The notes beneath the pieces are model-generated. The model saw only the letters and a list, made by a program, of their open reading frames with translations, ran no database searches and was not told the origin of the DNA. A DNA stretch of 64,000 nucleotides from Arctopsyche grandis. Lineage: Eukaryota > Arthropoda > Insecta > Trichoptera > Hydropsychidae. The number at the start of each line of letters is the position of its first letter. The stretch's first letter is position 1. Location of the stretch: contig NC_135360.1 in NCBI RefSeq assembly GCF_051622035.1, forward strand, positions 9,290,001 through 9,354,000, given 5' to 3'. The translations under genes and the position numbers were made by a program. Shown piece after piece: positions 1 to 64,000 of the stretch.

Positions 1-3000
1 TACAATCTCGAATTCTTTGATTTCTGTGATGGTTAGGTTAGGTTGGGTTAGGTTTGGTGAGGTAAGCGAGTTTTGTGAATAACTTACAATCTCGAATTCT
101 TTGATTTCGGTGTTGGTTAGGTTAGGTTGGGTTAGGTTTGGTGAGGTAAGCACGTTTTGTGTATATTTGTGCAATGTCGAATTCTTTAATTTCGGTGTTG
201 GTGAAGTTAGATTGGGTTAGGTTTGGAGAGGTTAGCACGTTTTGTGTATATTTTTGGAATGTCGATTTCTTTGATTGCAGTGTTGGTTAGGTTAGGTTGG
301 GTTAGGTTTGGTGCGGTAAGCGAGTTTTGTGAATACTTTACAATCTCGAATTCTTTGATTTCTGTGATGGTTAGGTTAGGTTGGGTTAAGTTTGATGAGG
401 TAAGCGAGTTTTGTGAATAACTTACAATCTCGAATTCTCTGATTTCGGTGATGGTTAGGTTAGGTTGGGTTAGGTTTGGTAAGGGTAGCACGTTTTGTTT
501 ATATTCTTGTAATGTTGAATTCTATGATTTCGGTGTAGATTAGGTTAGGTTGGGTAAGGTGTCGTGAGGTAAGCACGTTTTGTGTATATTCTTGCAATGT
601 CGAATTCTTTGATTTCGGTGTTGGTTAGGCTAGGATGGATTAGGTTTGGTGTGGTTAGCGAGATTTGTGAATAGCTAACAATCTCGAATTATTTGATTTG
701 GTGATGGTAAAGTAAAGTTGAGTCTGTTTTGATGAGGTAAGCGAGTTTTGTGTTAATCTTACAATCTCGAATTCTTAGATTTCGGTGATGGTTAGGTTAG
801 GTTGGGTTAGGTTTGGTGAGCTTAGTACGTTTTGTGTATATTTTTGCAATGTCGAATTATTTGATTTCGGTGATGGTTACGTTAGGTTGGGTTAGGTTTG
901 ATAAGGTAAGCGAGTTTTGTGAATAACTTACAATCTCGAATTCTCTGATTTCGGTGATGGTTAGGTTAGGTTGGGTTAGGTTTGGTGAGGTTAGCACGTT
1001 TTGTTTATATTCTTGCAATGTTGAATTCTATGATTTCGGTTTGGTTAGGTTAGGTTGGGTTATGTTTGCTGTGGTTAGCGAGATTTGTGAATAACTAACA
1101 ATCTCGAATTGTTTGATTTCGGTGATGGTTAGGTTAGGTTGGGTTTGGTTTGGTGAGCTTAGCACGTTTTGTGAATATTTTTGCAATGTTGAATTCTTTG
1201 ATTTCGGTGTTGGTTAGGTTTGGTGAGGGAAGCGCGTTTTGTGTATATTTTTACAATGTCGAATTCTTTGATTTCGGTGTGGGTTAGGTAAGGTTGGGTT
1301 AGATTTGGTGAGGTAAGCGAGTTTTGTGAATTACTTACAATCTCGAATTCTTTGATTTCGTTGTTGGTTAGGTTAGGTTAGGTTACGTTTGGTGAGCTGA
1401 GCACGATTTGTATATATTTTTGCAATGTTGAATTCTTTGTTTTCGGTGATGGTAAGGTTAGGTTCGGTTTGGTTTGGTGGGCTTAGCACGTTTTGTGTAT
1501 ATTTTTGCAATGTTGAATTCTTTGATTTCGGTGTTGGTTAGGTTTGGTGAGGGAAGCGCGTTTTGTGTATATTTTTACAATGTCGAATTCTTTGATTTCG
1601 GTGTTGGTTAGGCTAGGTTGGGTTCTGTTTGCTGTGGTTAGCGAGATTTGTGAATAACTAACAATCTCGAATTGTTTGATTTCGGTGATGGTTAGGTTAG
1701 ATTGGGTTAGGTTTGGTGAGGTTAGCACGTTTTGTGAATATTTTTGCAATGATGAATTCTTTGATTTCGGTGTTGGTTAGGTTTGGTGAGGGAAGCGCGT
1801 TTTGTGTATATTTTTACAATGTCGAATTCTTTGATTTCGGTGTTGGTTAGGCTAGGTTGGGTTATGTTTGCTGTGGTTAGCGAGATTTGTGAATAACTAA
1901 CAATCTCGAATTGTTTGATTTCGGTGATGGTTAGGTTAGATTGGGTTAGGTTTGGTGAGGTTAGCACGTTTTTTGTATTTTTTTGCAATGTCGAATTCTT
2001 TGATTTCGGTGTTGGTTAGGTTAGATTGGGTTAGGTTTGGTGAGGTGAGCTCGTTTTGTGTATATTTTTGGAATGTCGATTTCTTTGATCTCCGTGTTGG
2101 TAAGGTTAGGTTGGGTTAGGTTTGGTGAGGTTAGCGAGTTTTGTGAATAACTTACAATCTCGAATTCTTTGATTTCGGTGATGGTTAGGTTAGGTTGGGT
2201 GAGATTTGGTGAGGTTAGCGAGTTTTGTGAATAACTTAAAATCTCGAATTCTTTGATTCCGGTGATGGTTAGGTTAGGTTGGATAAGGTTTGGTGCGGTT
2301 AGCACGTTTTGTGTTTATTTTTGCAATGTTGAATTCTTTGATTTTGGTGTTGGTTAGGTTTTGCTGGGTTGGGTTTGGTGAGGAAAGCGCGTTTTGTGTA
2401 TATTTTTGCAATGACGATTTCTTTGATTTCGGTGTTGCTTGGGTTAGTTTGGTTTAGGTTTGGTGAGGTAAGCACGTTTTGTGTATATTCTTGCAATGTT
2501 GAATTCTATGATTTCGGTGTTGGTTAGGTTAGGTTGGGTTAGGTTTTGTAAGGTTAGCACGTTTTGTGTAAATCTTACAATCTCGAATTCATTGATTTCG
2601 GTGATGGTTAGATTAGGTTGGGTAAGGTTTCGTGAGGTTAGCACGTTTTGTGTATATTCTTGCAATGCCGAATTCTTTGATTTCGGTGTTGGTTAGGCTA
2701 GGTTGGGTTAGGCTTGGTGTGGTTAGCGAGATTTGTGAATAACTTACGATCTCGAATTCTTTGATTTCGGTGTTGGTTAGGTTAGGTTGGGTTAGGTTTG
2801 GTGAGTTTAGCGAGTTTTGTGAATAACTTACAATCTCGAATTCTTTGATTTCGTTGTTGGTAAGGTTAGGTTGGTTTAGGTTTAATGAGGTTAGCACGTT
2901 TTGTGTATATTTTTGCAATGTCGAATTTTTTGATTTCGGTGTGGGTTAGGTTAGGTTGGTTTAGGTTTGGTGAGGTAAGCACGTTTTGTGTATATTCTTG

Positions 3001-6000
3001 CAATGTTGAATTCTATGATTTCGGTGTTAGTTAGGTTAGGTTGGGATAGGTTTGGTGAGGTAAGCATCTTTTGTGTATATTTTTGCAATGTCGAATTCTT
3101 TGATTTCGGTGTTGGTTAGGCTAGGTTGGGTTAGGTTTGGTGTGGTTATCGAGATTTGTGAATAACTAACAATCTCGAACTCTTTGATTTCGGTGATGGT
3201 TACGGTAGGTTGGGTTAGGTTTGATGAGGTAAGCGAGTTTTGTGAATAACTTACAATCTAGAATTCTCTGATTTCGGTGATGGTTAGGTTAGGTTGGGTT
3301 AGGTTTGGTGAGGTTAGCACTTTTTGTTTATATTCTTGCACTGTTGAATTCTATGATTTCGGTTTGGTTAGGTTAGGTTGGGTTAGGTTTGGTGAGGTGA
3401 GCGAGTTTAGTGAATAACTTACAATCTGGAATTCTTTGTTTTCGGTGATGGTAAGGTTAGGTTCGGTTAGGTTTAGTGAGGTTAGCACGTTTTGTGTATA
3501 TTTTTGCAATGTCGAATTCTTTGATTTCGGTGTGGGTTAGGTAAGGTTGGGTTAGATTTGGTGAGGTAAGCGAGTTTTGTGAATTACTTACAATCTCGAA
3601 TTCTTTGATTTCGTTGTTGGTTAGGTTAGGTTAGGTTACGTTTGGTGAGCTGAGCACGATTTGTATATATTTTTGCAATGTTGAATTCTTTGATTTCGGT
3701 GATGGTAAGGTTAGGTTCGGTTTGGTTTGGTGGGCTTAGCACGTTTTGTGTATATTTTTGCAATGTTGAATTCTTTAATTTCGGTGTTGGTTAGGTTTGG
3801 TGAGGGAAGCGCGTTTTGTGTATATTTTTACAATGTCGAATTCTTTGATTTCGGTGTTGGTTAGGCTAGGTTGGGTTATGTTTGCTGTGGTTAGCGAGAT
3901 TTGTGAATAACTAACAATCTCGAATTGTTTGATTTCGGTGATGGTTGGGTTAGGTTGGGTTTGGTTTGGTGAGCTTAGCACGTTTTGTGAATATTTTTGC
4001 AATGTTGAATTCTTTGATTTCGGTGTTGGTTAGGTTTGGTGAGGGAAGCGCGTTTTGTGTATATTTTTACAATGTCGAATTCTTTGATTTCGGTGTTGGT
4101 TAGGCTAGGTTGGGTTATGTTTGCTGTGGTTAGCGAGATTTGTGAATAACTAACAATCTCGAATTGTTTGATTTCGGTGATGGTTAGGTTAGATTGGGTT
4201 AGGTTTGGTGAGGTTAGCACGTTTTGTGTATTTTTTTGCAATGTCGAATTCTTTGATTTCGGTGTTGGTTAGGTTAGATTGGGTTAGGTTTGGTGAGGTT
4301 AGCTCGTTTTGTGTATATTTTTGGAATGTCGATTTCTTTGATCTCCGTGTTGGTAAGGTTAGGTTGGGTTAGGTTTGGTGAGGTTAGCGAGTTTTGTGAA
4401 TAACTTACAATCTCGAATTCTTTGATTTCGGTGATGGTAAGGTTAGGTTGGGTTAGGTTTAGTGAGGTAAGCACGTTTTGTGTATATTTTTGCAATGTCG
4501 AATTCTTTGATTTCGGTGTGGGTTAGGTAAGGTTGGGTTAGATTTGGTGAGGTAAGCGAGTTTTGTGAATTACTTACAATCTCGAATTCTTTGATTTCGT
4601 TGTTGGTTAGGTTAGGTTAGGTTACGTTTGGTGAGCTGAGCACGATTTGTATATATTTTTGCAATGTTGAATTCTTTGTTTTCGGTGATGGTAAGGTTAG
4701 GTTCGGTTTGGTTTGGTGGGCTTAGCACGTTTTGTGTATATTTTTGCAATGTTGAATTCTTTGATTTCGGTGTTGGTTAGGTTTGGTGAGGGAAGCGCGT
4801 TTTGTGTATATTTTTACAATGTCGAATTCTTTGATTTCGGTGTTGGTTAGGCTAGGTTGGGTTCTGTTTGCTGTGGTTAGCGAGATTTGTGAATAACTAA
4901 CAATCTCGAATTGTTTGATTTCGGTGATGGTTAGGTTAGATTGGGTTAGGTTTGGTGAGGTTAGCACGTTTTGTGAATATTTTTGCAATGATGAATTCTT
5001 TGATTTCGGTGTTGGTTAGGTTTGGTGAGAGAAGCGCGTTTTGTGTATATTTTTACAATGTCGAATTCTTTGATTTCGGTGTTGGTTAGGCTAGGTTGGG
5101 TTATGTTTGCTGTGGTTAGCGAGATTTGTGAATAACTAACAATCTCGAATTGTTTGATTTCGGTGATGGTTAGGTTAGATTGGGTTAGGTTTGGTGAGGT
5201 TAGCACGTTTTGTGTATTTTTTTGCAATGTCGAATTCTTTGATTTCGGTGTTGGTTAGGTTAGATTGGGTTAGGTTTGGTGAGGTTAGCTCGTTTTGTGT
5301 ATATTTTTGGAATGTCGATTTCTTTGATCTCCGTGTTGGTAAGGTTAGGTTGGGTTAGGTTTGGTGAGGTTAGCGAGTTTTGTGAATAACTTACAATCTC
5401 GAATTCTTTGATTTCGGTGATGGTTAGGTTAGGTTGGGTGAGATTTGGTGAGGTTAGCGAGTTTTGTGAATAACTTAAAATCTCGAATTCTTTGATTCCG
5501 GTGATGGTTAGGTTAGGTTGGATAAGGTTTGGTGCGGTTAGCACGTTTTGTGTTTATTTTTGCAATGTTGAATTCTTTGATTTTGGTGTTGGTTAGGTTT
5601 GGTGAGGTTGGCAAGTTTTGTGCATATTTTTGCAATGTCGAATTCTTTGATTTCGGTGTTGGTTAGGTTTGGTGAGGGAAGCGCGTTTTGTGTATATTTT
5701 TACAATGTCGAATTCTTTGATTTCGGTGTTGGTTAGGCTAGGTTGGGTTAGGTTTGGTGAGGTTAGCGAGTTTTGTGAATAACTTACAATCTCGAATTCT
5801 CTGATTTTGGTGATGGTTAGGTTAGGTTGGGTTGGGTTTGGTGAGGGTAGCACGTTTTGTTTATATTCTTGTAATGTTGAATTCTATGATTTCGGTGAAG
5901 GTTAGGTTAGGTTGGGTAAGGTGTCGTGAAGTAAGCACGTTTTGTGTATATTCTTGCAATGTCGAATTCTTTGATTTCGGTGTTGGTTAGGCTAGGATGG

Positions 6001-9000
6001 ATTAGGTTTGGTGTGGTTAGCGAGATTTGTGAATAGCTAACAATCTCGAATTATTTGATTTCGGTGATGGTAAAGTAAAGTTGAGTCTGTTTTGATGAGG
6101 TAAGCGAGTTTTGTGTAAATCTTACAATCTCGAATTCTTAGATTTCGGTGATGGTTAGGTTAGGTTGGGTTAGGTTTGGTGAGCTTAGTACGTTTTGTGT
6201 ATATTTTTGCAATGTCGAATTATTTGATTTCGGTGATGGTTACGTTAGGTTGGGTTAGGTTTGATAAGGTAAGCGAGTTTTGTGAATAACTTTCAATCTC
6301 GAATTCTTTGATTTCGGTGATGGTTAGGTTAGGTTGGGTTAGGTTTGTTGAGGTTAGCACGTTTTGTTTATATTCTTGCAATGTTGAATTCTATGATTTC
6401 GGTTTGGTTAGGTTAGGTTGGGTTAGGTTTGGTGAGGTGAGCGAGTTTTGTGAATAACTTACAATCTGGAATTCTTTGATTTCGGTGATGGTTAGGTTAG
6501 ATTGGGTTAGGTTTGGTGAGGTTAGCACGTTTTGTGTATTTTTTTGCAATGTCGAATTCTTTGATTTCGGTGTTGGTTAGGTTAGATTGGGTTAGGTTTG
6601 GTGAGGTTAGCTCGTTTTGTGTATATTTTTGGAATGTCGATTTCTTTGATCTCCGTGTTGGTAAGGTTAGGTTGGGTTAGGTTTGGTGAGGTTAGCGAGT
6701 TTTGTGAATAACTTACAATCTCGAATTCTTTGATTTCGGTGATGGTTAGGTTAGGTTGGGTGAGATTTGGTGAGGTTAGCGAGTTTTGTGAATAACTTAA
6801 AATCTCGAATTCTTTGATTCCGGTGATGGTTAGGTTAGGTTGGATCAGGTTTGGTGCGGTTAGCACGTTTTGTGTTTATTTTTGCAATGTTGAATTCTTT
6901 GATTTTGGTGTTGGTTAGGTTTGGTGAGGTTGGCAAGTTTTGTGCATATTTTTGCAATGTCGAATTCTTTGATTTCGGTGTTGGTTAGGTTTGGTGAGGG
7001 AAGCGCGTTTTGTGTATATTTTTACAATGTCGAATTCTTTGATTTCGGTGTTGGTTAGGCTAGGTTGGGTTAGGTTTGGTGAGGTTAGCGAGTTTTGTGA
7101 ATAACTTACAATCTCGAATTCTCTGATTTTGGTGATGGTTAGGTTAGGTTGGGTTGGGTTTGGTGAGGGTAGCACGTTTTGTTTATATTCTTGTAATGTT
7201 GAATTCTATGATTTCGGTGTAGGTTAGGTTAGGTTGGGTTAGGTTTGGTGAGGTGAGCGAGTTTTGTGAATAACTTACAATCTGGAATTCTTTGTTTTCG
7301 GTGATGGTAAGGTTAGGTTAGGTTAGGTTTAGTGAGGTTAGCACGTTTTGTGTATATTTTTGCAATGTCGAATTCTTTGATTTCGGTGTGGGTTAGGTAA
7401 GGTTGGGTTAGATTTGGTGAGGTAAGCGAGTTTTGTGAATTACTTACAATCTCGAATTCTTTGATTTCGTTGTTGGTTAGGTTAGGTTAGGTTACGTTTG
7501 GTGAGCTGAGCACGATTTGTATATATTTTTGCAATGTTGAATTCTTTGATTTCGGTGATGGTAAGGTTAGGTTCGGTTTGGTTTGGTGGGCTTAGCACGT
7601 TTTGTGTATATTTTTGCAATGTTGAATTCTTTGATTTCGGTGTTGGTTAGGTTTGGTGAGAGAAGCGCGTTTTGTGTATATTTTTACAATGTCGAATTCT
7701 TTGATTTCGGTGTTGGTTAGGCTAGGTTGGGTTATGTTTGCTGTGGTTAGCGAGATTTGTGAATAACTAACAATCTCGAATTGTTTTATTTCGGTGATGG
7801 TTAGGTTAGGTTGGGTTTGGTTTGGTGAGCTTAGCACGTTTTGTGAATATTTTTGCAATGTTGAATTCTTTGATTTCGGTGTTGGTTAGGTTTGGTGAGG
7901 GAAGCGCGTTTTGTGTATATTTTTACAATGTCGAATTCTTTGATTTCGGTGTTGGTTAGGCTAGGTTGGGTTATGTTTGCTGTGATTAGCGAGATTTGTG
8001 AATAACTAACAATCTCGAATTGTTTGATTTCGGTGATGGTTAGGTTAAATTGGGTTAGGTTTGGTGAGGTTAGCACGTTTTGTGTATTTTTTTGCAATGT
8101 CGAATTCTTTGATTTCGGTGTTGGTTAGGTTAGATTGGGTTAGGTTTGGTGAGGTTAGCTCGTTTTGTGTATATTTTTGGAATGTCGATTTCTTTGATCT
8201 CCGTGTTGGTAAGGTTAGGTTGGGTTAGGTTTGGTGAGGTTAGCGAGTTTTGTGAATAACTTACAATCTCGAATTCTTTGATTTCGGTGATGGTTAGGAT
8301 AGGTTGGGTTAGGTTTGGTGAGGTTAGCGAGTATTGTGAATAACTTACAATCTCGAATTCTTTGATTCCGGTGATGGTTAGGTTAGGTTGGATAAGGTTT
8401 GGTGCGGTTAGCACGTTTTGTGTATATTTTTGCAATGTTGAATTCTTTGATTTTGGTGTTGGTTAGGTTTGGTGAGGTTGGCACGTTTTGTGCATATTTT
8501 TGCAATGTCGAATTCTTTGATTTCGGTCATGGTTAGGTTATGTTGGGTTAGGTTTCGTGAGGTAAGCAAGTTTTGTGTCTTATCTTCAATCTCGAATTAT
8601 TTGATTTCGGTGATGGTAAGGTTAGGTGGGTTTAGTTTGGTGAGCTTAGCGAGTTTTGTGTTAATCTTACAATCCCGAATTCTTTGATTTCGGTGATGGT
8701 TAGGTTAGGTTGGGTTAGGTTTGGTGAGGTAAGCACGTTTTGTGTATATTTTTGCAATGTCAAATTCTTTGATTTTGGTGATGGTCAGGTTAGGTTGGGT
8801 TAGGTTTGGTGAGGTTAGCACGTTTTGTGTATATTTTTGGAATGTCGATTTCTTTGATTTTGGTGTTGGTTAGGTTAGGTTGGGTCAGGTTTGGTGAGGT
8901 TAGCGAGTTTTGTGAATAACTTACAATCTCGAATTCTTTGATTTCTGTGATGGTTAGTTTAGGTTGGGTTAGGTTCGGTGAGGTTAGCACGTTTTGTGTA

Positions 9001-10495
9001 TATTTTTGCAATCTCGAATTCTTTGATTTTGGTGATGGTTAGGTTAGGTTGGGTTAGGTTTGGGGAGGTAAGCACATTTTGTGTATATTTTTGCAATGTT
9101 GAATTCTTTGATTTCGGTGATGGTTAGGTTAGGTTGGGTTAGGTTTGGTGAGGTAAGCACATTTTGTGTATATTTTTGCAATGTCGAATTCTTTGATTTC
9201 GGTGTTGGTGAGGTTAGATTGGGTTAGGTTTGGAGAGGTAAGCGAGTTTTGTGAATAACTTACAATCTCGAATTCTTTGATTTCGGTGATGGTTAGGTTA
9301 GGTTGGGTTAGGTTTGGTGAGGTAAGCACGTTTTGTGTATATTTTTGCAATGTCAAATTCTTTGATTTTGGTGTTGGTTAGGTTAGGTTGGGTTAGGTTT
9401 GGTGAGGTTAGCGAGTTTTGTGAATAACTTACAATCTCGAATTCTTTGATTTCGGTGATGTTTAGGTTAGGTTGGGTTAGGTTTGGTGAGGTAAGCACGT
9501 TTTTTGTATATTTTTGCAATGTCGAATTCTTTGATTTCGGTGATGGTTAGGTTATGTTGGGTTAGGTTTGGTGAGGTAAGCACGTTTTGTGTATATTTTT
9601 GCAATGTCGAATTCTTTGATTTCGGTGTTGGTTAGGTTAGGTTGGGTTAGGTTTGGTGAGGTAAGCACGTTTTGTGTATATTTTTGCAATGTCGAATTCT
9701 TTGATTTTGGTGTTGGTTAGGTTAGGTTGGGTTAGGTTTGGTGAGGTTAGCGAGTTTTGTGAATAACTTACAATCTCGAATTCTTTGATTTCGGTGATGT
9801 TTAGGTTAGGTTGGGTTAGGTTTGGTGAGGTAAGCACGTTTTTTGTATATTTTTGCAATGTCGAATTCTTTGATTTCGGTGATGGTTAGGTTAGGTTGGG
9901 TTAGGTTTGGTGAGGTAAGCACGTTTTGTGTATATTTTTGCAATGTCGAATTCTTTGATTTCGGTGTTGGTTAGGTTAGGTTGGGTTAGGTTTGGTGAGG
10001 TAAGCACGTTTTGTGTATATTTTTGCAATGTCGAATTCTTTGATTTTGGTGTTGGTTAGGTTAGGTTGGGTTAGGTTTGGTGAGGTTAGCGAGTTTTGTG
10101 AATAACTTACAATCTCGAGTTCTTTGATTTCGGTGATGGTTAGGTTAGGTTGGGTAAGGTTTGGTGAGGTAAGCACGTTTTGTGTATATTTTTGCAATGT
10201 CAAATTCTTTGATTTCGGTGTTGGTGAAGTTAGATTGGGTTAGGTTTGGAGAGGTTAGCACGTTTTGTGTATATTTTTAGAATGTCGATTTCTTTGATTG
10301 CGGTGTTGGTTAGGTTAGGTTGGGTTAAGTTTGGTGCGGTAAGCGAGTTTTGTGAATAACTTACAATCTCGAATTCTTTGATTTCGGTGATGATTAGGTT
10401 AGGTTGGGTTAGGTTTGATGAGGTTAGCGAGTTTTGTGTAAATCTTACAATCTCGAAGTCTTATATTTCGTTAATGGTTAGGTTAGGTTGGACCG
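1..10495. repeat. 84-85-bp satellite array with TTAGG-like half-units
   Basis: The whole stretch is a tandem array of units 84-85 bp long (successive TACAATCTCG/TGCAATGTCG landmarks at 1, 85 and 170). Each unit has a G/T-rich half, built from GGTTAGGTTAGGTTGGGTTAGG-like runs ending in TTTGGTGAGGT, and an AT-richer linker around CGAATTCTTTGATTTCGG. Two linker types occur, one with GAATAACTTACAATCTCG and one with GTATATTTTTGCAATGTCG. TTAGG is the canonical insect telomere repeat, so the G-rich half resembles degenerate telomeric DNA, but perfect (TTAGG)n is absent and a subtelomeric position is only inference. Because 84 is a multiple of 3, long open frames run through the array with a 28-residue period; they are by-products. 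The array runs off the left edge and ends sharply near GGTTGGACCG. Confidence 0.95.
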
Positions 10496-25470: not shown

Positions 25471-25743
25471 GATATTAATAACAAACACGTAAAGCGAGAA
25501 ATTAAACGTACCTATGTACTATGTATGTATGTATAATATGTATGCATATGTCTATGAATACTCTTTATTGAAAATATTCAATATTATTTCAAGTATTATA
25601 AAAATTAATAGTAAAAGTTCAGTGAAAATTATCAACTTTCAGTAGATAAACATATTTATTATCACGGGAAGCTCCATAATTTTAAATAATATAATATTCA
25701 TTATTATATTGCAGATGCACCCTATTACTTGTGAAAAATTATT

Positions 25744-25868
25744 TTAATCTCCAATATATTTTCCACAGAAAATTATATCATCCTTGTTCATCAACATATA
25801 GAAGAATGGGTGATCGGCTGTGAAATATTCTTCGTCAATTCGAGCTGAATCTGCTACAACTCTTAATT
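25744..25868 (-). other. Alternative terminal exon b of serpin B (RCL with P1 Asp)
   Basis: 125 bp, preceded by a TTGATTTCAG acceptor and ending in a stop. With the upstream G it encodes ELRVVADSARIDEEYFTADH and onward through PFFYMLMNKDD to KYIGD. Counting from P15 Gly of the shared hinge, P4 to P1 are V-V-A-D and P1' is Ser. The reading frame is intact, and the C-terminal serpin core after FTADHPF is almost identical to exon a. It is the distal copy, 319 bp downstream of exon a. Confidence 0.85.
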
Positions 25869-28392
25869 CTGAAATCAAAAATCCTTTTTGTAGTTAGTAC
25901 TTACCTCCTTTTTTACACACGTTAAAAATTAAACACGTCGGTGGTGTCTTCTAGAAGATTTCCCCCCGCCGGAAAAAAAAAAAAGTTAAGGTTGGCCCTA
26001 TGCATTTAAGATCGGTATTATTCAGTTTCAGTGTCACACGCGAGAACTGAGACAGTGAGACCGCATATTAATAAGGTAGACAAAAGGTGGAAGAGAAAAA
26101 CATTAAATACGAATGTTAATATTTCATTATATGCATTACAACTAATAATGTTAACATATTGGAGAAGCTACTCTTTAAAGTTATAATTTAATCTCCAATA
26201 TATTTTCCACAGAAAATTATATCATCTTTGTTCATCAACATATAGAAGAATGGATGATCAGCCGTGAAGAATACTGCATCATTTCTAAGTGACTCTATTT
26301 GAATTTTAAATGCTGAAATGAAAATTTATATTTACTGTCTATACTTTGTTTTTTGATACTACAGTTTTTATTGAAAAAACCTGTAACAACGCCAGCTTCA
26401 GTTCCATGCTCATTGACTTCAATGAAAGCCTTTTGTTTAGCATCTGATACGAACAGTTGTTCGGGGTTTTTTAATAAATTATGTAAATCTGCCTTCTGCT
26501 TATTGAAAATCAGTTTTATTCCGAGCTAAAAAAAAAACAGAATTACATACAAACAATAATAAACAAATAGACCAAGAAATTGTGGTAACACGACACATAC
26601 TTCCGGTAAAACATGTTTCAGATCAATGGTTGATTCAATCTTGAATTTCGGAATACCAACATGGACTTCTGTTTTTCTCATTTTATTTATAATATTGACC
26701 ATGTTGGCGCCATAAAGTTTTTCTTCTAAGGCCGCAAGTCCATCGACTTTTCTGGGTAAAATTATGGCTAAATATGTGTCGTTGTTTTTATAAGGTAATG
26801 CCAAAATCTAATGTTATGAAGCAAATAATCAATATCAGCATGACATAATATATACCGGTCTCCGTGACGAGACAGAATGTTAAATGACAGAAAACGCCAA
26901 TATCGGAAGGCAAAGATCGAAAATCGAATGATCTTAAGTCGAAAGATCAAAAAAAAAAGGTGCATGGTAAACGGTACATACTCACTTAATTTGCGCGAGC
27001 AGGATACAACAGGAACAAGAGAAACAGGCTTTTCCTCCCGTATTAATGTGCGCGCGCAGAATACGGGAGGAAAAGCATGTTCCTCTTGTTCCTGTTGTAT
27101 CCTGCTCGCGCAAATTAAGTGAGTATGTACCGTTTACCATGCACCATTTTTTTTGATCTTTCGACTTAAGATCTTTCGATTTTCGATGTTTGCCTTCCGA
27201 TATTTGCGCTTTCTGTCATTTAACATTCTGTCTTCGTCACGTAGACCCTATATATACATACATATTAATATAAATAATCCAATCGAAATAATTACTTCAG
27301 AGTTCCATTCTGGTAGATTAGCATAAGGGAAATCGTCAGTTTGATACATTATGTCAACCTCAACTTTGTCAATTTTATTTTTCTTAAATTTAGTTTTTTG
27401 TACCGAACGTTTATCGAATGGATTTTCCCAATTACCCTACAATTAATAAATGTATATAACAAAAACACACACATATGCTATACCTAAATATTCGTTTGTT
27501 TCTTAGTACCTGGAAATAAATAGCATTAACCAGCATAATGCGAGTGTTCTCATCAAATATGTCTGGTGATACAAAATCCTTAATTTTATTATTAGTCTTA
27601 CTCTCAACCTTTAAAAATTAATAAAAATATACTTTAACACAACAGTTTAAAAATAAATCTCCATTAATTGGGCATTAAATAGTGCAAAATATACCCATTC
27701 ATTAATTGTATTAGCCGCTCGAGTGGCTTTTGAAAAATCGATATTTTCAACATCAGAAGAAAATTGATCTACAGCAACGGATTTAAACACCGGATCTAGT
27801 TTGAAGGCTTCGCCGTCTTTCACATATACTTTATTGGCAATGTTTAAAACTACTCCTTGAATATTGCTGAGCTTTCTCATTGTAGTTTGAAAAGTAGATT
27901 TTATCTGAAATAGAAGAATAAAAAATATTAACAATCCTCAACCAGAAAATTATATGTCGATATTTATAAAATTTCATTTACTATTTCTGAATCCGGCAAA
28001 TGAAGAGCATCGCTTATTTCCTTTTGGGTGTCACCACGGGCACCTGTGGACAGAAGTCCAAGGAGAACTTCAGCTGAAAGTGGCGACAATATTAAGCTCT
28101 TTCCAGTATTTTTGTTTGCAGTCTCCTATGCAGAAATAAAAAAAATAGTCTAATGTGTAAGTATTGCATAAGTTACGTTTAATTATGCATAATAGCAAAG
28201 AAATACTTTGTAGAATTCTAATGAAAATTGGTTTATTGTATTTGTTGTTTGATTACTTGGCGCTAATACAACAGACACAACCAGAAAGAAAAATATTAAA
28301 GCTGAAAAATAAAATGGTGTGTCATTATAAATGCAATTATATTTATATTGTATTATAATTATAATTATACAGAATTCAGATATCTTTTTCAT
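25744..28392 (-). CDS. Secreted serpin B with two alternative terminal exons (~395 aa)
   Basis: Close paralogue of serpin A. Shared coding exons: 28371-28392, 28207-28301, 27982-28125, 27695-27904, 27510-27608, 27296-27436, 26601-26807, 26381-26525; then either 26188-26312 or 25744-25868. Either choice gives 1188 nt in frame. MKKISEF plus SLIFFFLVVSVVLAP makes a signal peptide. Landmarks are SPLSAEVLLGLLSTGARGDT, NTINEWVESKTNNKI, NAIYFQGNWENPF, PRKVDGLAALEEK and the hinge EVNEHGTEAGVVT. The shared exons end one base into a codon, and both terminal exons start with the two bases that complete it. This matches the Manduca serpin-1 arrangement, where terminal exons are chosen exclusively. The 26808-27295 intron holds a MULE foldback MITE. 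The donor before the terminal exons, G|GTTTTTTC, is weak, which may favour regulated splicing. Confidence 0.9.
26188..26312 (-). other. Alternative terminal exon a of serpin B (RCL with P1 Glu)
   Basis: 125 bp, same length and phase as exon b, with a CATTTCAG acceptor. With the upstream G it encodes AFKIQIESLRNDAVFFTADH and the standard end KYIGD. P1 is predicted as Glu and P1' as Ser. It is the proximal copy and closely resembles the terminal exon of serpin A. Confidence 0.85.
26857..27247. mobile_element. MULE-type foldback MITE in serpin B intron
   Basis: Nearly the whole element is one inverted repeat of ~190-bp arms around a centre near 27045. The arms read GGTCTCCGTGACGAGACAGA ... TTAAGTCGAAAGATC ... 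CTCACTTAATTTGCGCGAGC. An 8-9-bp duplication ATATATAC flanks it. Related copies are at 31024-31418, 44374-44761 and partly 39320-39535. Long TIRs and 9-bp duplications (clearest in the other copies) fit Mutator-like elements. It has no coding capacity and lies between serpin exons without touching splice sites. Confidence 0.8.
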
Positions 28393-28505: not shown

Positions 28506-29189
28506 TAACAAAAACCCTGTCCGCTGTTCTTATTCAAAATATTAGCCATTTGCTTTCATAAAATTTTAGTATGAACTTTAACAAATTATCATTACTACAG
28601 TCTCTATTCTGAGACTTTGGAAAGCACGGCACTAATTAATTGCTGTCAACAAAAATAATTCTATTTTGACTTTTGAGACTGATCATGTGAGGCAACGATT
28701 AAAATAATTTAACGAATGTTGTTTCAAAAATATACATATACAATATACAATAACATAACAACATGTATTCATATGTATTTATACTTATAATACTTACATA
28801 TATTTCACAACTATACATAATAATATAGTTCAAGCTACACTTTAAAGAAGCTCCAATATATTTCCCACAGAAAATTATATCATCTTTGTTCATCAACATA
28901 TATAAAAAAATGGATAATCAGCCGTGAATAAAACTTGATCATTTTAAGTGACTCCAGTCGAATTTTATATTCTGAAATGAACATTAACAAATTTACTACA
29001 ATACCTAATCTGAGACTTTGCACACCAACACGTTGGGAAGCATAGCGCTAGTTAATTGTTGTCAACAAAAGTAAATCTATTTTGACTTTTGACTCTGACC
29101 ATGTATGGCTACGATTAAATTAAATAGATACATATTATGTCAATGACCACATATGTATGTAATTGTATTGAAAATATTACAAATCTCCT

Positions 29190-29439: not shown

Positions 29440-30866
29440 GTCTGTGTGGGTGTGTATTTTGGGGATATTTTTAACACCGTTAAACAAATTTTTTTCAAAT
29501 TTTTAAGTTGACCGGAAATGGTACCTCGCCTTATAGGTGTCCTCTTTTTTTAAGTTTTTGAATTCAATCCCAAACCACTGATTGAATCGGACTGAATTTT
29601 TTTTAAATATAATACAAATAATAATTTTTATAACCTCATATTTTTTAAATATTTCTATCTGAACCGGAAGCAGTACTTTTACTCTAGAGAATCGAAGTTT
29701 TTTATATTTTTTTCAGAAACCTTTTGTTTTATTGAACTGAAATTTCATATCTAGAAGTTTAAGTTTAATACCAAGTTAATTATAAAATTTAGTTAGCATC
29801 CGTCTACCGGAAGTAGCAGTTTACTTTAATTTTTTCGACCCTTTAAACATGTGTGTTCGTCACAAAAAAATTCAAGTATAATTCTTGTTGCAATTTGATG
29901 AAAATGAAAAAAAATTATTAAATTTTATAAACCGGAAGTGGGATTTTTTTCCTCGTAGAAAGGTCAAAAATGTTGTGCCCACTACTCTGTCCACACCCCT
30001 GAACGTATTAAGCTGAAAATTTATATTTCTATCCTTTGTGTACTAACTTAGAGCTGGTAGGGTTTTGGTCAGAATTCGTAAGCCGGAAGTAGTATTTTTT
30101 TAAAAAACAATATTTCATTATTTTTTCATTATTTTATTTTGACCTTTTAAATTGTTTTAAGCTTCTTGATATTTAATGTGTATAATAAAAATAGTGATTT
30201 TAAGTAAAAATAAAAAAAAATTACTTAATTTAATGAACCGGAAGTGGGATTTTTTTCCTCGTAGAAAGGTCAAAAATGTTGTGCCCACTACTCTGTCCGC
30301 ACCCCTGATCGTATTAAGCTGAAAATTTATATTTCTATTCTTTGTGTACTAACTTAGAGCTGGTAGGGTTTTGGTCAGAATTCGTAAGCCGGAAGTAGTA
30401 TTTTTTTTAAAAACAATATTTCATTATTTTTTCATTATTTTATTTTGACCTTTTAAATTGTTTTAAGCTTCTTGATATTTAATGTGTATAATAAAATAGT
30501 GATTTTAAGTAAAAATAAAAAAAAATTACTTAATTTAATGAACCGGAAGTGGGATTTTTTTCCTCGTAGAAAGGTCAAAAATGTTGTGCCCACTACTCTG
30601 TCCGCACCCCTGAACGTATTAAGTTGAAAATTTATATTTCTATTCTTTATGTACTAACTTAGAGCTGGTAGGGTTTTGGTCAGAATTTGTAAACCGGAAG
30701 TAGTATTTTTTTTTAAAACAATATTTCATTATTTTATTTTGACCTTTAAAATTATTTTTATTTTCTTGATATTTAATGAGTATAATACTGATAGTGATTT
30801 TTAGTAATAAAAAAAATTTGAACAAAATCTGATAACCGGAAGTAGATCTTTTGTTTTGTGCAAGTA
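29440..30866 (-). mobile_element. ACTTCCGGTT-block element, expanded copy
   Basis: Inverse-orientation relative of 20757-21720. It includes three direct copies of a ~305-bp segment (starting near 29931, 30236 and 30540), each carrying AACCGGAAGTGGGATTTTT and CTAACTTAGAGCTGGTAGGG. It ends exactly where serpin C exon 4 is cut. No coding sequence. Confidence 0.75.
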
Positions 30867-31023
30867 ACGGATTTGAACACTGGAGCTAGTTTGAACGCTT
30901 CGCCGTCTTTCACATATACTTTATTGGCAATGTTTAAAACTACTCCTTGAATATTGCGTACCTTTCCCATTGTAGATTGGAAAGTAGATTTTATCTGAAA
31001 TAGAAGGAAAAATATTAAAAATC

Positions 31024-31418
31024 CGGTCTCCCTCACGGGACCGAAAGTGAAACGCCCAAAAATGCAAATATCGGAAGGCACAGATCGAAAATGAAAAGAT
31101 CTTAAGTCAAAAGATCAAAAAAGAAAGGGTGCACGGTAAACGGTACTATGTATATATAATATATATGAGTGGCATGCGGTGAAATTATCTCTCTTTTTGT
31201 CATACAGCCTTGTTTAATGTGCGCGCGCAGAATACGGGAGGAAAAGCCTGTTCCTCTTCTTCCTGTTGTATCCTGCTCGCGCAAATTAAGTGAGTATGCA
31301 CGACGGGGGGAGAGACCCTTTTTTTATCTTTCTACTTAAGATCTTTCGATTGTCGATCTTTGCCTTCCGATATTTGCGTTTTCGGGCGTTTCACTTTCGG
31401 TCCCGTGAGGCAGACCCC
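31024..31418. mobile_element. MULE-type foldback MITE in serpin C
   Basis: Same family as 26857-27247, more diverged and with an altered centre. It is flanked by the 9-bp duplication TTAAAAATC (31015-31023 and 31419-31427). The ends read CGGTCTCC... and ...GGCAGACCCC. Confidence 0.85.
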
Positions 31419-39319: not shown

Positions 39320-39535
39320 ATTTTTCCCTCATATTAATACGGTAGGAAAAGCCTGTTCCTCTTGTTCCTGTTGTATCCTGCTCGCGCAAATTAAGTGAGT
39401 ATGTACGTGAGTATGTACCGTTTACCATGCACCCTTTTTTTTTATCTTTCGACTTAAGATCTTTCGATTTTCGATCTTTGCCTTCCGATATTTGCGTTTT
39501 CTGTAATTTAACATTCTGTCTCGTCACGGAGACCG
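39320..39535. mobile_element. Half copy of MULE foldback MITE
   Basis: Matches one arm of the family (TACGGTAGGAAAAGCCTGTT ... CATTCTGTCTCGTCACGGAG). The partner arm is missing, and a poly-C run lies just outside. Confidence 0.85.
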
Positions 39536-44364: not shown

Positions 44365-44373
44365 GTATTTCAC

Positions 44374-44761
44374 CGGTCTCCGTGACGGGCTCGAATGTGA
44401 AACGCCCGAAAACGCAAATATCGGAAGGCAAAGATCGAAAATTGAAAGATCTTAAGTCGAAAGATAGTAAAAGGGTGCATGATAAACGGTACATACTCAC
44501 TTAATTTGCGCGATCAGGATACAACAGGAACAAGAGGAACAGGCTTTTCCTCCCGTATTAATGTGCGCGCGCAGAATACGGGAGGAAAAACCTGTTCCCC
44601 TTGTTCCTGTTGTATCCTGCTCGCGCAAATTTAGTGAGTATGTACCGTTTACCATGCACCCTTTTTTTGATCTCTCGACTTAAGATCTTTTGATTTTCGA
44701 TCTTTGCCTTCCGGTATTTACGTTTTCGGGCGTTTCACATTCGGGCCCGTGAGGTAGACCC
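44374..44761. mobile_element. Complete MULE foldback MITE with 9-bp duplication
   Basis: Near-perfect inverted repeat with ends CGGTCTCCGTGACGGGC and GCCCGTGAGGTAGACCC, flanked by the exact 9-bp duplication GTATTTCAC (44365-44373 and 44762-44770). This is the best-preserved copy in the window, and the 9-bp duplication is the main support for Mutator-like origin. Confidence 0.92.
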
Positions 44762-45166
44762 GTATTTCACATATTAAAATATTTTTATCAGTTTATTTTT
44801 TATTTATTAAAAGTTCAGTTGACCTTAGATTGGGTGCTATAATTTACATAGTTTAATTTATAATGATAAAATTAACTCATTTGGCATATTCTACAAAATT
44901 TCAACCGTGTGATGTATCAAAACAGTACCCTCAGTAAATTTCCAAACTTTTACCTTATTATAATAGCAATAATAAAACGATACAGGGATTAAATAAATTG
45001 CAAAAAATATAACAAGTATTTTTGTAAAATCTAAACAATTATTTGTAAGCTGAATGGTTAGTTTATCACATAATACAAACTTTGAAGCTCGAACAATAGG
45101 AACTCTTACGTTCTTATGCATTCGAAACAGGAATTTTTGCAAATCTATCTAAAAAAAATTTGTTAT

Positions 45167-52570: not shown

Positions 52571-53600
<1,030 letters not shown>

Positions 53601-54015: not shown

Positions 54016-54954
54016 ATGGAAGCCGCTCGTCGCCCTACCGCCCGCGCCCTACCGGTCAGTATCTCTCGCCACTCCTATTACACTTATTGTCACACACCTC
54101 TCACCTCTCCATGCAACAATAACACCCCCATTTTTTCCCGCATTTTTGTACGTCCATACCTCGCGATATGCAATTGGACTGATGTTTATACATACATATG
54201 TGTGATATATACATATGCTCTAAAATAAAAAAATACGCATACAGTAGTATTGATTTTCCGATATTTTTCAACTAATACGTAGTATGTATGTGTGTATATA
54301 TGAAAATAATAAGTCGAAATTCTCATCGAGCAAACTACTGCACCGGTAGGTAAAGCATTGGTGGGACAGAGTTGTGAAGAACAGATGATGTCAAGTGGGG
54401 GCAGGTTACGATATCTCCTGATGATTTGTGGATAATAAAGCAGAACGTGGGGAGAACTGATACTGATTTTTTATATACACATGTTATAGTGGAAGCATTA
54501 CCGTAATGATAGGTTCCAGTGGCGGCTCGTGAGAATTCATAGAGGGTTGGTTGCAGAGACTTATCCAGCTGTAGTAGCTCGTTGACCATGCCGGTGATCA
54601 AATGCAGACAAAATAGCATGCATATGTACTATACTGGAAGGTCTGCAGTCCTACAGTATATATGGACGGCAAAAATAACATGCATTTGTATTTTTGATCA
54701 AATGCAGACAAAATAGCACGCATATATACTATACTGAGAGGTCTGTAGCCCCGCAGTACATATAGACAAGCCACCACTGATATGTTCTTATTTAGGGATT
54801 GTAAACCCAATTGTGGATGGTGTGAAAGAATATGAATAAGGTGGGAAGGTAAATGCTATTGATTTAATCTGAGATTGGTTTCAATTATGTATATTTCAAA
54901 GTCCCGTTAGTTCTATTTGTAAAGAACAGATGGTTTTGTAGTAGTGAAAACTCA

Positions 54955-55006
<52 letters not shown>

Positions 55007-57764
55007 TTCCTTTTCCCCTTTCCTTTACTCAATTCTTATCTTATAATAAACTTTATCAATACAATTATTTGTCAAATACTAATAATCGTATTCTTGACCT
55101 AGCTATTAGTAGTTTCCCCTTATATATTTCTCGTGCTGACTCTACGCTAATCCATGAAGATTCTCATCATTTATCCTTTTGCATCTCAATAATTTACAAC
55201 AAATCTTCACCCTTGAATTATAATTATAATAAAACTTTCCTCTTTAGAAAAGCTGACTATGCTACAATTATTCCAATTTTAAGCGATATCAATTGGAATT
55301 CACTTTTGTCCAATTTAAATATTGATTTAGCTTGTAAAAAATTTTACGATAACTTACAAAATATTATTGAATGCCACGTCCCTTTTACTCTTAAATCTAA
55401 GCGTACCAAATATCCCCCTTGGTTTACATCGTCTCTTATTAAAATAATAAAAGAAAAAAACAAATTCCATAAAAAATTTAAAATTTATTCAAATCCCTTA
55501 GATTATCAAAGTTTTTCACTATTAAGAGCTCGAATTAAAAAATATTCTTTAATCTGCTTTAGAAATTATATTTCTCTTATTCAAAATAATATTAAAACTA
55601 ATCCCAAATCATTTTGGTCATATATAAATTCAAAAAAAAATACCTCCTCTTCATATCCTTCCGTAATGTATTATGGAAATAAGTCGGCTTCACATGGTTC
55701 TGAAATCTGTACCATTTTTGCTGACTATTTTGACTCCACTTTCAATAGTGATTCTACCATTAACCTTTCTATCTCTAATACAGATACTTCTTCTTGTAAC
55801 TTATCTACTTTTCATTTTGACTTATCTACTGTACTCAGTCACATCAACTCTCTCAATGTTAATCTTGGTGCGGGTTGTGATGGTTTGCCTTCTTTTTTCC
55901 TTGTTAAATGTGCTGTCCCATTATCTCTTCCCATAACAATCCTTTTCAATCTTTCTATGTCGAACGGTAAATTTCCTGACTATTGGAAATTATCTTACAT
56001 CACCCCTATTTTTAAAAAAGGTGATAAGAATCTTATTGAGAATTACCGTCCTATATCTAAACTATCTGTCATTAGTAAAATCTTTGAAAAAATTATCTAT
56101 AATTTCCTTTTCTCCAATTTCAAAAACTACATTATACCTGAACAACATGGTTTTTTTAAGGGGAGATCGGTAGAGACTAACCTGCTTAATTTCACTAGTA
56201 CTCTCACATCTTATATGGACAAACGAATCCAAATAGACGTCGTTTATACGGATTTCTCTAAAGCTTTTGATAAAATCAATCACAACCTTTTACTCAATAA
56301 ACTTTGGTCCCTTGGAATCCGAGGAAATTTATTTCGTTGGATCTCTTCGTATATACTAAATCGTCACCAAATCATAATTCTCAATGGTTTTAGATCATCA
56401 CTTAGACATATTCCTTCCGGTGTCCCACAAGGGTCGCATTTAGGTCCCTTATTGTTTTTACTCTATATTAATGATATCTCATACATCTTCAAACATTCCT
56501 TTATACTTCTTTACGCTGATGATTTAAAAATTTACAAACCTATATACACCATAGACGATTGTCATAAGATACAAGAAGATCTAGATAGATTCTCTATATA
56601 TTGTTTAAATAATGATCTTTTTATTAATCTAGAAAAATGCTCTATTTTAAATTTCACTAGAAATAAGTCAATTATTACTAATCAATATCAATTAAATCAT
56701 TCAATCCTTAACACGTCATCTTCTATTAAGGATCTTGGTGTAATACTCAATAATAAACTAGATTTCTCTGAACATATTTCTTTTATTACCAACAAAGCAT
56801 TTAAATCTCTTGGATTCCTACTCCGCTCAACAAAACCCTTTAATGATCCTTATGTACTAAAATTACTTTATTTTTCCTTTGTAAGGTCTCACCTTGAATT
56901 TGCCTCAATTATCTGGTCACCTTTTTATTTATCCCATATTAATTGTATTGAGAAAGTTCAACTTAAATTTATTAAATCCTTACGCTACCTTTTTCCTACC
57001 TATACCCATTCTACTGTTTCCGACATTTTAAAAATCCTTTCTTTTAACAATCTTTCTGTCAGGCGACGACATTCTGATGCTATATTCTTCTTTAAGCTCA
57101 TAAATGGTTTCCTTGATTGTTCTGATTTACTGAATAAGGTTAATTTCAGAATCCCAGTTCGATACCCTAGACGCGTTACACTCTTTTCACTTGATCCTTT
57201 CAATACTAATTCCCAAAAATATTTTTATCTGCAGCGCGTTTATCGTATGTTTAACGGAGAGCTGAATGAGGTTGATCTGTTTGGTATTTCCCTACATCAA
57301 TTCAGGTCTAACATCAAGAGAATCTTGACCGATTGATTCATTTTTTCTTCTATTCTATTTTTCCAATATTTCCATTATTTTTATACTTTAGTTTAGTTAT
57401 GTAATGTGCTATTTAATCATATTATAGCTTTCATTCCTTTCCATTTCATTTGTTTATTTTGTATTTACCTTTTTCATTTGTTTTTTATATTTGTAAATTT
57501 CAATTTCTTCTTATATTCTATCTTATAACCTTTTCCAAATATTTTAATACTATAGTTTAATTATGCAGTGTACTACATATTTTGTCATGCCTTTATTCTT
57601 TACTTTTTAATTTGTTTTCCTTATATTTATCTTTTTCATTTTTGTAAAAATCTATTATTGGACTCGGGTGTTACATATATTATTTATTTACTTTTTGTGT
57701 TTTTTATACCTATCTCTGTACATCCTGTCTGTTGATTTTTCAATTAATAAAATAAAATAAAAAT

Positions 57765-62031: not shown

Positions 62032-64000
62032 ATGAAGCAGACAATTTTGACATTTGTATTACTCGTGCTGCACTCTTTCAATGTTTTGGCTTCCGGTGGT
62101 AAGTATTCTTCATTAGTTTTGTTCCATATTGAGATAATTGGGTTTTGGTGTGAAGTTTATATTGCGATATAATCATTGAATGACCAAGGAAAAATTTATT
62201 TTGTCTAAAATGGCGCCTATAATAATACACATGTCAAATTTACAATGTTACAAAATATATATATGTAGGATACAGATTCATTTAGAACTTATAATTTTCT
62301 ATTAGCTAAACATTCTTCCACGTCATATCAATTCTTCAATTATATTGGCTTCAATTCTTATTCTTCACCCACGTGTTTATTTTTCTTAATCACTTGCTAG
62401 GCCTAATTCACATAGAAATTTGGGCACAAAAGTCTCCATTATTTTGTGTGTCGTAGCGGTTTCTCCGACTTCTCAACCTGTCATAACACAATAATAATTG
62501 GATGGGTTATCCTTTTGTTCGTTGCTGACTTTTGAGGACTCGATAAATATTAAGTAATGTAAATTATAATCACAACACTCATTTTAACGATGAACTTTAA
62601 GATATAACCTTGAAATCACATTAAATAAAAGAAATTTTGGTTCAATAAAAAAATTTTAAAAATGAAGTTAAGAGATTTGTTGCTCATAAGGTCTATCATA
62701 ATGCTTTTAGCTAAGATAAATATAAGAATACATTATATAAGCAGTGACACATCTGACAGCAAATCTCTCAGTGAATGCCCACCTCAAATTTATATAACAC
62801 TATTTCACTCTCTTTAGATTAATAATTGACCAATTGCTTTTTAAAGTTTATTGTAAAGTCAAATAGTAGTTGGGTAAACACAACATTTTCCACATATGCT
62901 AGATTATACATAACTCTATAACTCAATCGGCCAATTATTATAAGCTATTACCAGTCAATTCCTGTGGTTTTTCAATGATTTTGTGTTAGTAAATTTCCTT
63001 CAGATCGATTTTCAGTACACATCGTTCAATATAAGCTGAAAAATAATTTTTATTTGATAGAAAATGTCGAAATTGGGCAAATATCGGAGGCTGAAAAAAA
63101 GTTAGCCAATCAAATTCTGAAAATCTTGGAACACTACAAACAAGAAGATCCTGTTGGTGTTCCCGGTGCTGAAATACCTGATCCTATGCCAATTCCTAAG
63201 ATGAAGCATAGCTTCCCTGCCGCCACAATGACATTCAACGATGTCAATGTCTATGGTTTGAGTAAATTTCGGATTATGTATGTAAAGTCAGAAATTTCAG
63301 CTATGGAGGTACTGTTTTCCTTATCTGTATTTTGATTTTGTCACGTTCAAACTGATTTAAGAAATAATTAAAAATGTTTCCAGGTGAATGCGGCGTTAAA
63401 AATAAAAAATCTTCAAGTAATTGGTAACTATACTATGTCCACTTGGATCAGCAGATCTCAGGGTCCATTTGTTGTAAATTTAACGGATGTCTATGTACAA
63501 GGATTGGCAAATTTGGCCATCGAAAGAGACGGTCGTCTTCAAGCTCAAGATATCAACATGGATATAACATTTAGTAATATCGCCATGAAGTTCGATAATT
63601 TAGGCTTTATGGGGTCTATATTCCAGGGTATACTCAATTCAGTGGGAACTTTCCTTTTTGAATCAATCAAACCGTTCGTTTTGAAAGAGGCTTACACCAA
63701 GATCAGAGATGAAGTAAATAAAAACCTCGAAAACTTAGCTGGAGAGATGCGATTTCCAAATTCTCTATCGCCGCTAGACATGGTGATTGCTGACACTCGT
63801 ACAAAGGTACGACAGATGAATTTAGATCCGATGCTGATACCAGATTATAATCATGTTACACCGTTTTATAGAGCAGATTTGTCGCATACTTGGGTCACAG
63901 GAATTTCGTCATTTTATCGTATGGGAAATATATCACTGTCGGTCGAAAACCACACGTTGATTGCCGACTTTGAAATAGGAACGCAAAAGCTCGAAGGGAA
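62032..64000 (+). CDS. Secreted TULIP/group-7-allergen-like protein, 5' part
   Basis: Partial gene running off the right edge. Exons: 62032-62098, 63061-63308 and 63384 onward, in phase. Exon 1 is a signal peptide, MKQTILTFVLLVLHSFNVLA. Exon 2 begins ENVEIGQISEAEKKLANQIL and includes DPMPIPKMKHSF. Exon 3 has VNLTDVYVQGLANLAIERDG, DINMDITFSNIAMKFDNLGF, MGSIFQGILNSVGTFLFES and then LDPMLIPDYNHVTPF, where a second related unit seems to start. The pattern (amphipathic strands, DVYV.G...L..D...DI..DI.F) fits the insect lipid-binding TULIP fold (group-7 mite-allergen / JHBP-like). The ligand is unknown and assignment within the fold is tentative. Intron 1 is ~960 bp, intron 2 ~75 bp. Confidence 0.75.

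Follow-up and report, generated by a model that had tools for sequence, protein, structure and literature searches.

Two candidate alternative terminal exons, both with an acidic P1 residue, in a clustered serpin gene of Arctopsyche grandis

The transcript of gene B, a serpin gene in the 64-kb stretch of Arctopsyche grandis DNA analysed here (the window; C6:9290001-9354000, from a genome of 475.7 Mb in 189 contigs), probably ends in either of two alternative terminal exons, designated 8a and 8b. Both lie behind a single hinge exon and each supplies the reactive-centre loop from P7 onward together with the C-terminal core. The gene is a new and minimal case of a known kind, and its twist is that the two loops each have an acidic P1.

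The shared body of gene B is intact (minus strand, 28392-25744), with exons 1a to 7 linked by GT-AG introns. The start codon is in exon 1a (28371..28392), which has frame and GT donor in place and a similar exon in paralogue A, and which opens a signal-peptide-like N terminus, MKKISEF, as judged by eye. It is followed by exons 1b (28207..28301), 2 (27982..28125), 3 (27695..27904), 4 (27510..27608), 5 (27296..27436) and 6 (26601..26807). The shared hinge exon, exon 7 (26381..26525, 145 bp), ends in EVNEHGTEAGVVT plus one G; it thus encodes P15-P8 as GTEAGVVT, and the single G is the first base of the P7 codon. Its donor, CAG|GTTTTT, outscored 21 of the 37 cluster donors. With the signal peptide judged by eye, gene B would be a secreted-type insect serpin, and this assignment together with the two alternative endings is, as a joint explanation, quite likely. 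Intron 5 holds a repeat element (26848-27255) of a family seen also at 31023-31417, 39330-39535 and 44372-44781; several copies are near-palindromic (~90% inverted repeat), and the family probably consists of miniature transposons.

Terminal exons 8a (26188..26312, minus strand) and 8b (25744..25868, minus strand) are both 125 bp long and end in TAA. Exon 8a encodes P7-P1 AFKIQIE, a P1' Ser and the C-terminal core, and exon 8b encodes P7-P1 ELRVVAD, likewise followed by a P1' Ser and the core. Each has an AG acceptor in the same phase and completes the codon opened by the hinge-exon G, giving a protein of 395 residues with either ending. By their coordinates, the introns from exon 7 are 68 nt to 8a and 512 nt to 8b, and the 8a stop and 8b are 319 nt apart. 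The Pfam Serpin domain (PF00079) was matched full-length, over residues 29-393, by the 8a and 8b isoforms at E-values of 3.3e-102 and 1.6e-102 (342.9 and 343.9 bits against a cut-off of 27), which places both in the superfamily and excludes chance. Gene B therefore has at least two complete loop-plus-C-terminus exons with one hinge exon, the same phase and their own stops. This is what a preliminary description of the region had reported, and its coordinates were exact, with both frames open.

The P1 register was set by phmmer comparison of the 8b isoform with solved-structure chains, using the Manduca sexta serpin-1 chains 1sek and 1k9o as reference. These two gave the top matches (~255 bits); the best-matching chains, 1sek, 1k9o, 3ozq and 4p0f, are serpins of Manduca, Tenebrio and Drosophila. 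The alignment to 1k9o and 1sek was gap-free between the hinge and a point beyond P1', and it placed the Asp of ELRVVAD|S on a Lys of 1k9o, the P1 residue of that chain, and on a Tyr of 1sek. By this alignment P1-P1' is Asp-Ser in 8b, and by equal spacing with 8b it is Glu-Ser in 8a (AFKIQIE|S). The register is supported by the P1' Ser common to 8a, 8b, gene A (EFKIQLI|S) and gene C (YLKAVPM|S). As aligned, P1 is acidic in both alternative loops of gene B. The gap-free alignment of 8b to Manduca serpin-1, and the equal spacing of 8a, also agree with the earlier statement that the variable part starts at P7; the variable region of Manduca serpin-1 presumably begins at the same residue.

PMC2770083 lists E/S at P1-P1' for Spn42De, and D/S, D/M and E/M in alternative exons of drosophilid Spn42Da orthologues, so an acidic P1 is already known among insect serpins and is not new in itself. 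The hinge of gene B, EHGTEAGVVT, agrees only in part with the drosophilid inhibitory consensus quoted in that paper: its His at P16 and Val at P10 deviate, and the remaining eight positions fit by eye. Because of these two departures inhibition by gene B is not certain, and inhibitory activity is rated as possible. The targets of gene B would be proteases cutting after acidic residues, and a single scaffold with two such loops would be expected to act on an unusual class of proteases.

Exon 8b is free of frameshifts and stops. In the C-terminal block, the last 27 codons, 5 synonymous changes and 1 replacement distinguish it from 8a; the 14 loop codons show 2 synonymous changes and 14 replacements (Fisher p = 0.004 for the contrast between block and loop). 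The neutral probability of at least 5 of 6 differences being synonymous was 0.001, or 0.011 with 30% of changes taken as synonymous. Among the copies compared, the synonymous states ACA, CAC and AAG occur in 8b only. Protein-level constraint was thus found in the C-terminal block of the alternative exons, over few sites, and 8b looks protein-constrained; this constraint may go back to a time when the exon belonged to a different gene. No claim of positive selection is made for the loop, where the excess of replacements (14 of 16 differences, p = 0.25) is not significant by itself. The C-terminal blocks of gene A (13580-13456) and 8a (26312-26188) have zero synonymous differences despite a dS of 0.38 and 0.57 between A and B in exons 6-7, which suggests gene conversion between the two paralogues.

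Both the anatomy and the splice position of gene B agree with Manduca serpin-1, Drosophila Spn42Da and Pteromalus Serpin-1, so that the earlier assignment to the Manduca serpin-1 type holds for the anatomy. In Manduca serpin-1, 14 copies of exon 9 are reported (PMC5691223) and the isoforms are proven; gene B has two candidate alternative terminal exons. Spn42Da (Spn4) of Drosophila is described as a gene in which alternative loop exons lie behind a constitutive core (PMC4006314), as in gene B. The D. melanogaster gene has four loop exons and both secreted and non-secreted N termini, in contrast to the two loop exons of gene B. Of 731 insect serpin genes in one clade, 192 are reported to undergo C-terminal alternative splicing, 161 of these at +1 after the hinge (PMC10513286). 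Gene B also splices at +1, GTEAGVVT being followed by one G, and this +1 splice with an extra G is shared with Pteromalus puparum Serpin-1 and the 192-gene set (PMC10513286). The position is not diagnostic, since the single-ending serpin genes of the cluster splice at the same +1 site. In the 192-gene set, as in gene B, the alternative region is more variable and the core constrained (PMC10513286). Serpin-1 of P. puparum has 21 C-terminal forms (PMC10513286), against the two of gene B, which sits in a cluster where ten genes were seen. Gene copy number and alternative splicing are reported to be negatively correlated in insect serpins, loop exons and gene copies being two routes to serpin diversity that are reportedly traded off (PMC10513286). 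The literature on insect serpins that was searched held no description of gene B, which says little.

Gene B lies among paralogues on the same (minus) strand: genes E (47617-45167), D (42558-40223) and C (36223-34014), all given here without their start exons, pseudogene P (31799 to 28848) and gene A (15652-13456). Pseudogene P retains exons 1b-3, exon 3 being cut at 30863 by the start of a repeat, and a terminal exon (28848..28971) that is stranded directly upstream of gene B and has lost frame and stop; its exons 4-7 were not found. The cluster continues beyond the window, with F1 and F2 just above it (locus L011) and Z, G1 and G2 ~95 kb below (loci L009 and L010). In gene C the hinge-exon donor at 34221 is weak: CAT|GTTTGA outscores just 4 of 37 donors. 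The altered final base of that exon makes P7 a Tyr. Below gene A there is an exon 4-like serpin scrap at 12010-11969 (minus strand; nhmmer E 0.0009).

A nucleotide profile of terminal exons identified seven in the window (A, 8a, 8b, C, D, E and P), the next matches in the window reaching only E 7.7 and 8.1. A pattern scan of the window and loci L009-L024 gave 20 hinge exons and 23 terminal exons; the terminal-exon pattern misses broken or divergent exons, among them those of pseudogene P and of a scrap in L010, and gene E appeared as a terminal exon without a hinge match. Two genes in these sequences have two terminal exons, namely gene B and a gene at L023 (C3:20886501-20892500, minus strand). 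In the C6 cluster two terminal exons were seen in one of ten genes, gene B only, and the claim that every other paralogue has a single terminal exon holds within the window and the scanned neighbouring C6 loci. Other array genes may exist, as the genome search for the serpin family scored 111 of 162 candidates, and several listed loci, such as some on C7 and one at C6:22.2 Mb, were covered only in part.

The gene at L023, which we liken to Spn42Da, has one hinge exon and, from 1771 and 1153, two terminal exons, one with the ending RLKRC...HDEF and one with GMMLMC...; the RLKR loop is the one with the HDEF (ER-retention-like) end. Given this separate Spn42Da-like gene, gene B is probably not an orthologue of Spn42Da. 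With one of ten cluster genes having two endings beside a pseudogene with a stranded exon, the region is a tractable case for the origin of exon arrays.

As to mechanism, the exon 7 donor would be joined either to the near acceptor (8a) or to the far acceptor (8b), so that one serpin scaffold would receive either loop, with P1 Glu-Ser or Asp-Ser, and a near-identical C-terminal core. As 8a contains a stop codon, the endings would exclude each other at the protein level with no dedicated device needed: an mRNA taking 8a would end its protein at the 8a stop irrespective of downstream sequence. Use of 8a and 8b is expected to be mutually exclusive. The acceptor of 8a scored 11.58 (above 28 of 39 cluster acceptors) and that of 8b 9.17 (above 16 of 39). 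The pyrimidine tract before 8b is thin, and a pyrimidine filter was failed by 8b and passed by 8a and one unrelated chance frame. Exon 8a may be the default ending, with 8b spliced in upon skipping of 8a. A TACTAAC before 8b was considered as branch-point support and dropped, since of the 39 cluster acceptor windows just 1 contains CTAAY, for which the background is 6%. Among the papers listed in a literature search on a docking/selector RNA mechanism, nothing was specific to serpins.

The 3' ends were examined for AATAAA and ATTAAA. Two AATAAA hexamers, candidate poly(A) signals, follow 8b (25655..25660 and 25564..25569, minus strand), and an ATTAAA overlaps the stop codon of both exons. No AATAAA is present between the 8a stop and 8b. 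With both AATAAA hexamers located beyond 8b, the simplest scheme is one in which the two acceptors compete and the 3' end is common, so that the 8a and 8b forms would be polyadenylated at the same place. This argument is weakened by gene A, which has neither AATAAA nor ATTAAA within 500 nt past its stop; the serpin genes of the cluster may use other poly(A) signals.

A different account of 8b is that it is the stranded last exon of a tandem neighbour that has lost its front. It would have stayed intact because this happened recently, and gene B would splice to it seldom or not at all. Stranded terminal exons do occur in the cluster, in pseudogene P and in the L010 scrap (2830-2672, minus strand), where a piece of exon 3 abuts a terminal exon that is broken, as though everything between them had dropped out. 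Nor does the acceptor of 8b stand out against that of the dead P exon, which scored 9.03 (also above 16 of 39); 3.2% (8b) and 3.4% (P) of 1586 AGs reach these scores. In a genome-wide comparison the best match to the 8b stretch is the terminal exon of A (161 bits, including 26 nt of upstream flank), followed by that of Z (149 bits, 29 nt of flank) and, marginally below both, by 8a (148 bits, 12 nt of flank). Against this account, 8b is undamaged in frame and nearly all differences from 8a in its C-terminal block are synonymous, and between 8b and gene A no further serpin exon scrap was found (best matches E >=0.2). The last codon GAT, moreover, is confined to 8a and 8b; it is GCT in A, C, D, Z, F1, F2 and H, CCC in G1 and GTT in E. 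On balance a stranded exon that gene B seldom or never uses is considered unlikely.

A bolder reading, advanced here as a speculation that is itself unlikely to be right, is that gene B captured the stranded terminal exon of a front-deleted, A/Z-like neighbour, and that the resulting pair forms an acidic-P1 switch (Glu versus Asp). If true, capture from a tandem duplicate would have turned gene duplication into alternative splicing in a single step, and the Glu/Asp switch would be aimed at proteases cutting after acidic residues. Phylogeny was rejected as a route to the origin of 8b. Supports beside 8b in the trees were 28 to 33%, and five topologies for 8b all fell within the 95% set (p-AU 0.19 to 0.78). 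As all five are statistically acceptable, the trees neither favour nor disfavour the proposal that the array is at an early or a reduced stage of growth.

It is less probable still, and regarded as quite doubtful, that both exons are used through separate poly(A) sites or an intron in the 3'UTR. In the latter case 8a would run to a donor-like GAG|GTAAGT at 25905 and from there to a downstream untranslated exon, while 8b would end at its own AATAAA. The donor-like site (GGAG|GTAAGT, 25899..25908, minus strand) outscores all 37 cluster donors and is the sole AGGTAAGT in the 64-kb window on both strands; gene D has a similar site 21 nt past its stop. The site runs into the TACTAAC before 8b (25893-25908, minus strand), and its cut lies 36 nt from the first base of 8b, which is too short for an ordinary intron and counts against one ending there. 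The acceptor of 8b is the only one in 26187-25500 above the lower quartile of cluster acceptors, which also counts against this reading. The hexamer GTAAGT alone is not rare, with 7 on the minus strand within 11-48 kb, and the site was noticed post hoc.

An assembly artefact, in which 8b would be an allele of some other terminal exon that was put in the wrong place or duplicated, might be suspected in a region rich in repeats and inverted-repeat elements, but it is highly improbable: no near copy of 8b was found (its top-scoring match elsewhere shares 83% identity over 155 bp), the flanks of 8b beyond ~30 nt upstream and ~14 nt downstream match 0 of 11 others (221 bp searched), and the window is without any N.

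An NF-kB-type (Dorsal/Dif) motif was counted in the window and dropped, its frequency not being above chance (44 observed against 54 expected, at most one mismatch). Elsewhere in the window, positions 1-10240 appear to be a long, strongly strand-skewed satellite array, and a TA repeat of ~0.9 kb occupies 52604-53570. A reverse transcriptase reading frame (PF00078) lies at 54868-57336, and a juvenile-hormone-binding domain (PF06585), barely at the cut-off, lies within 62979-63332.
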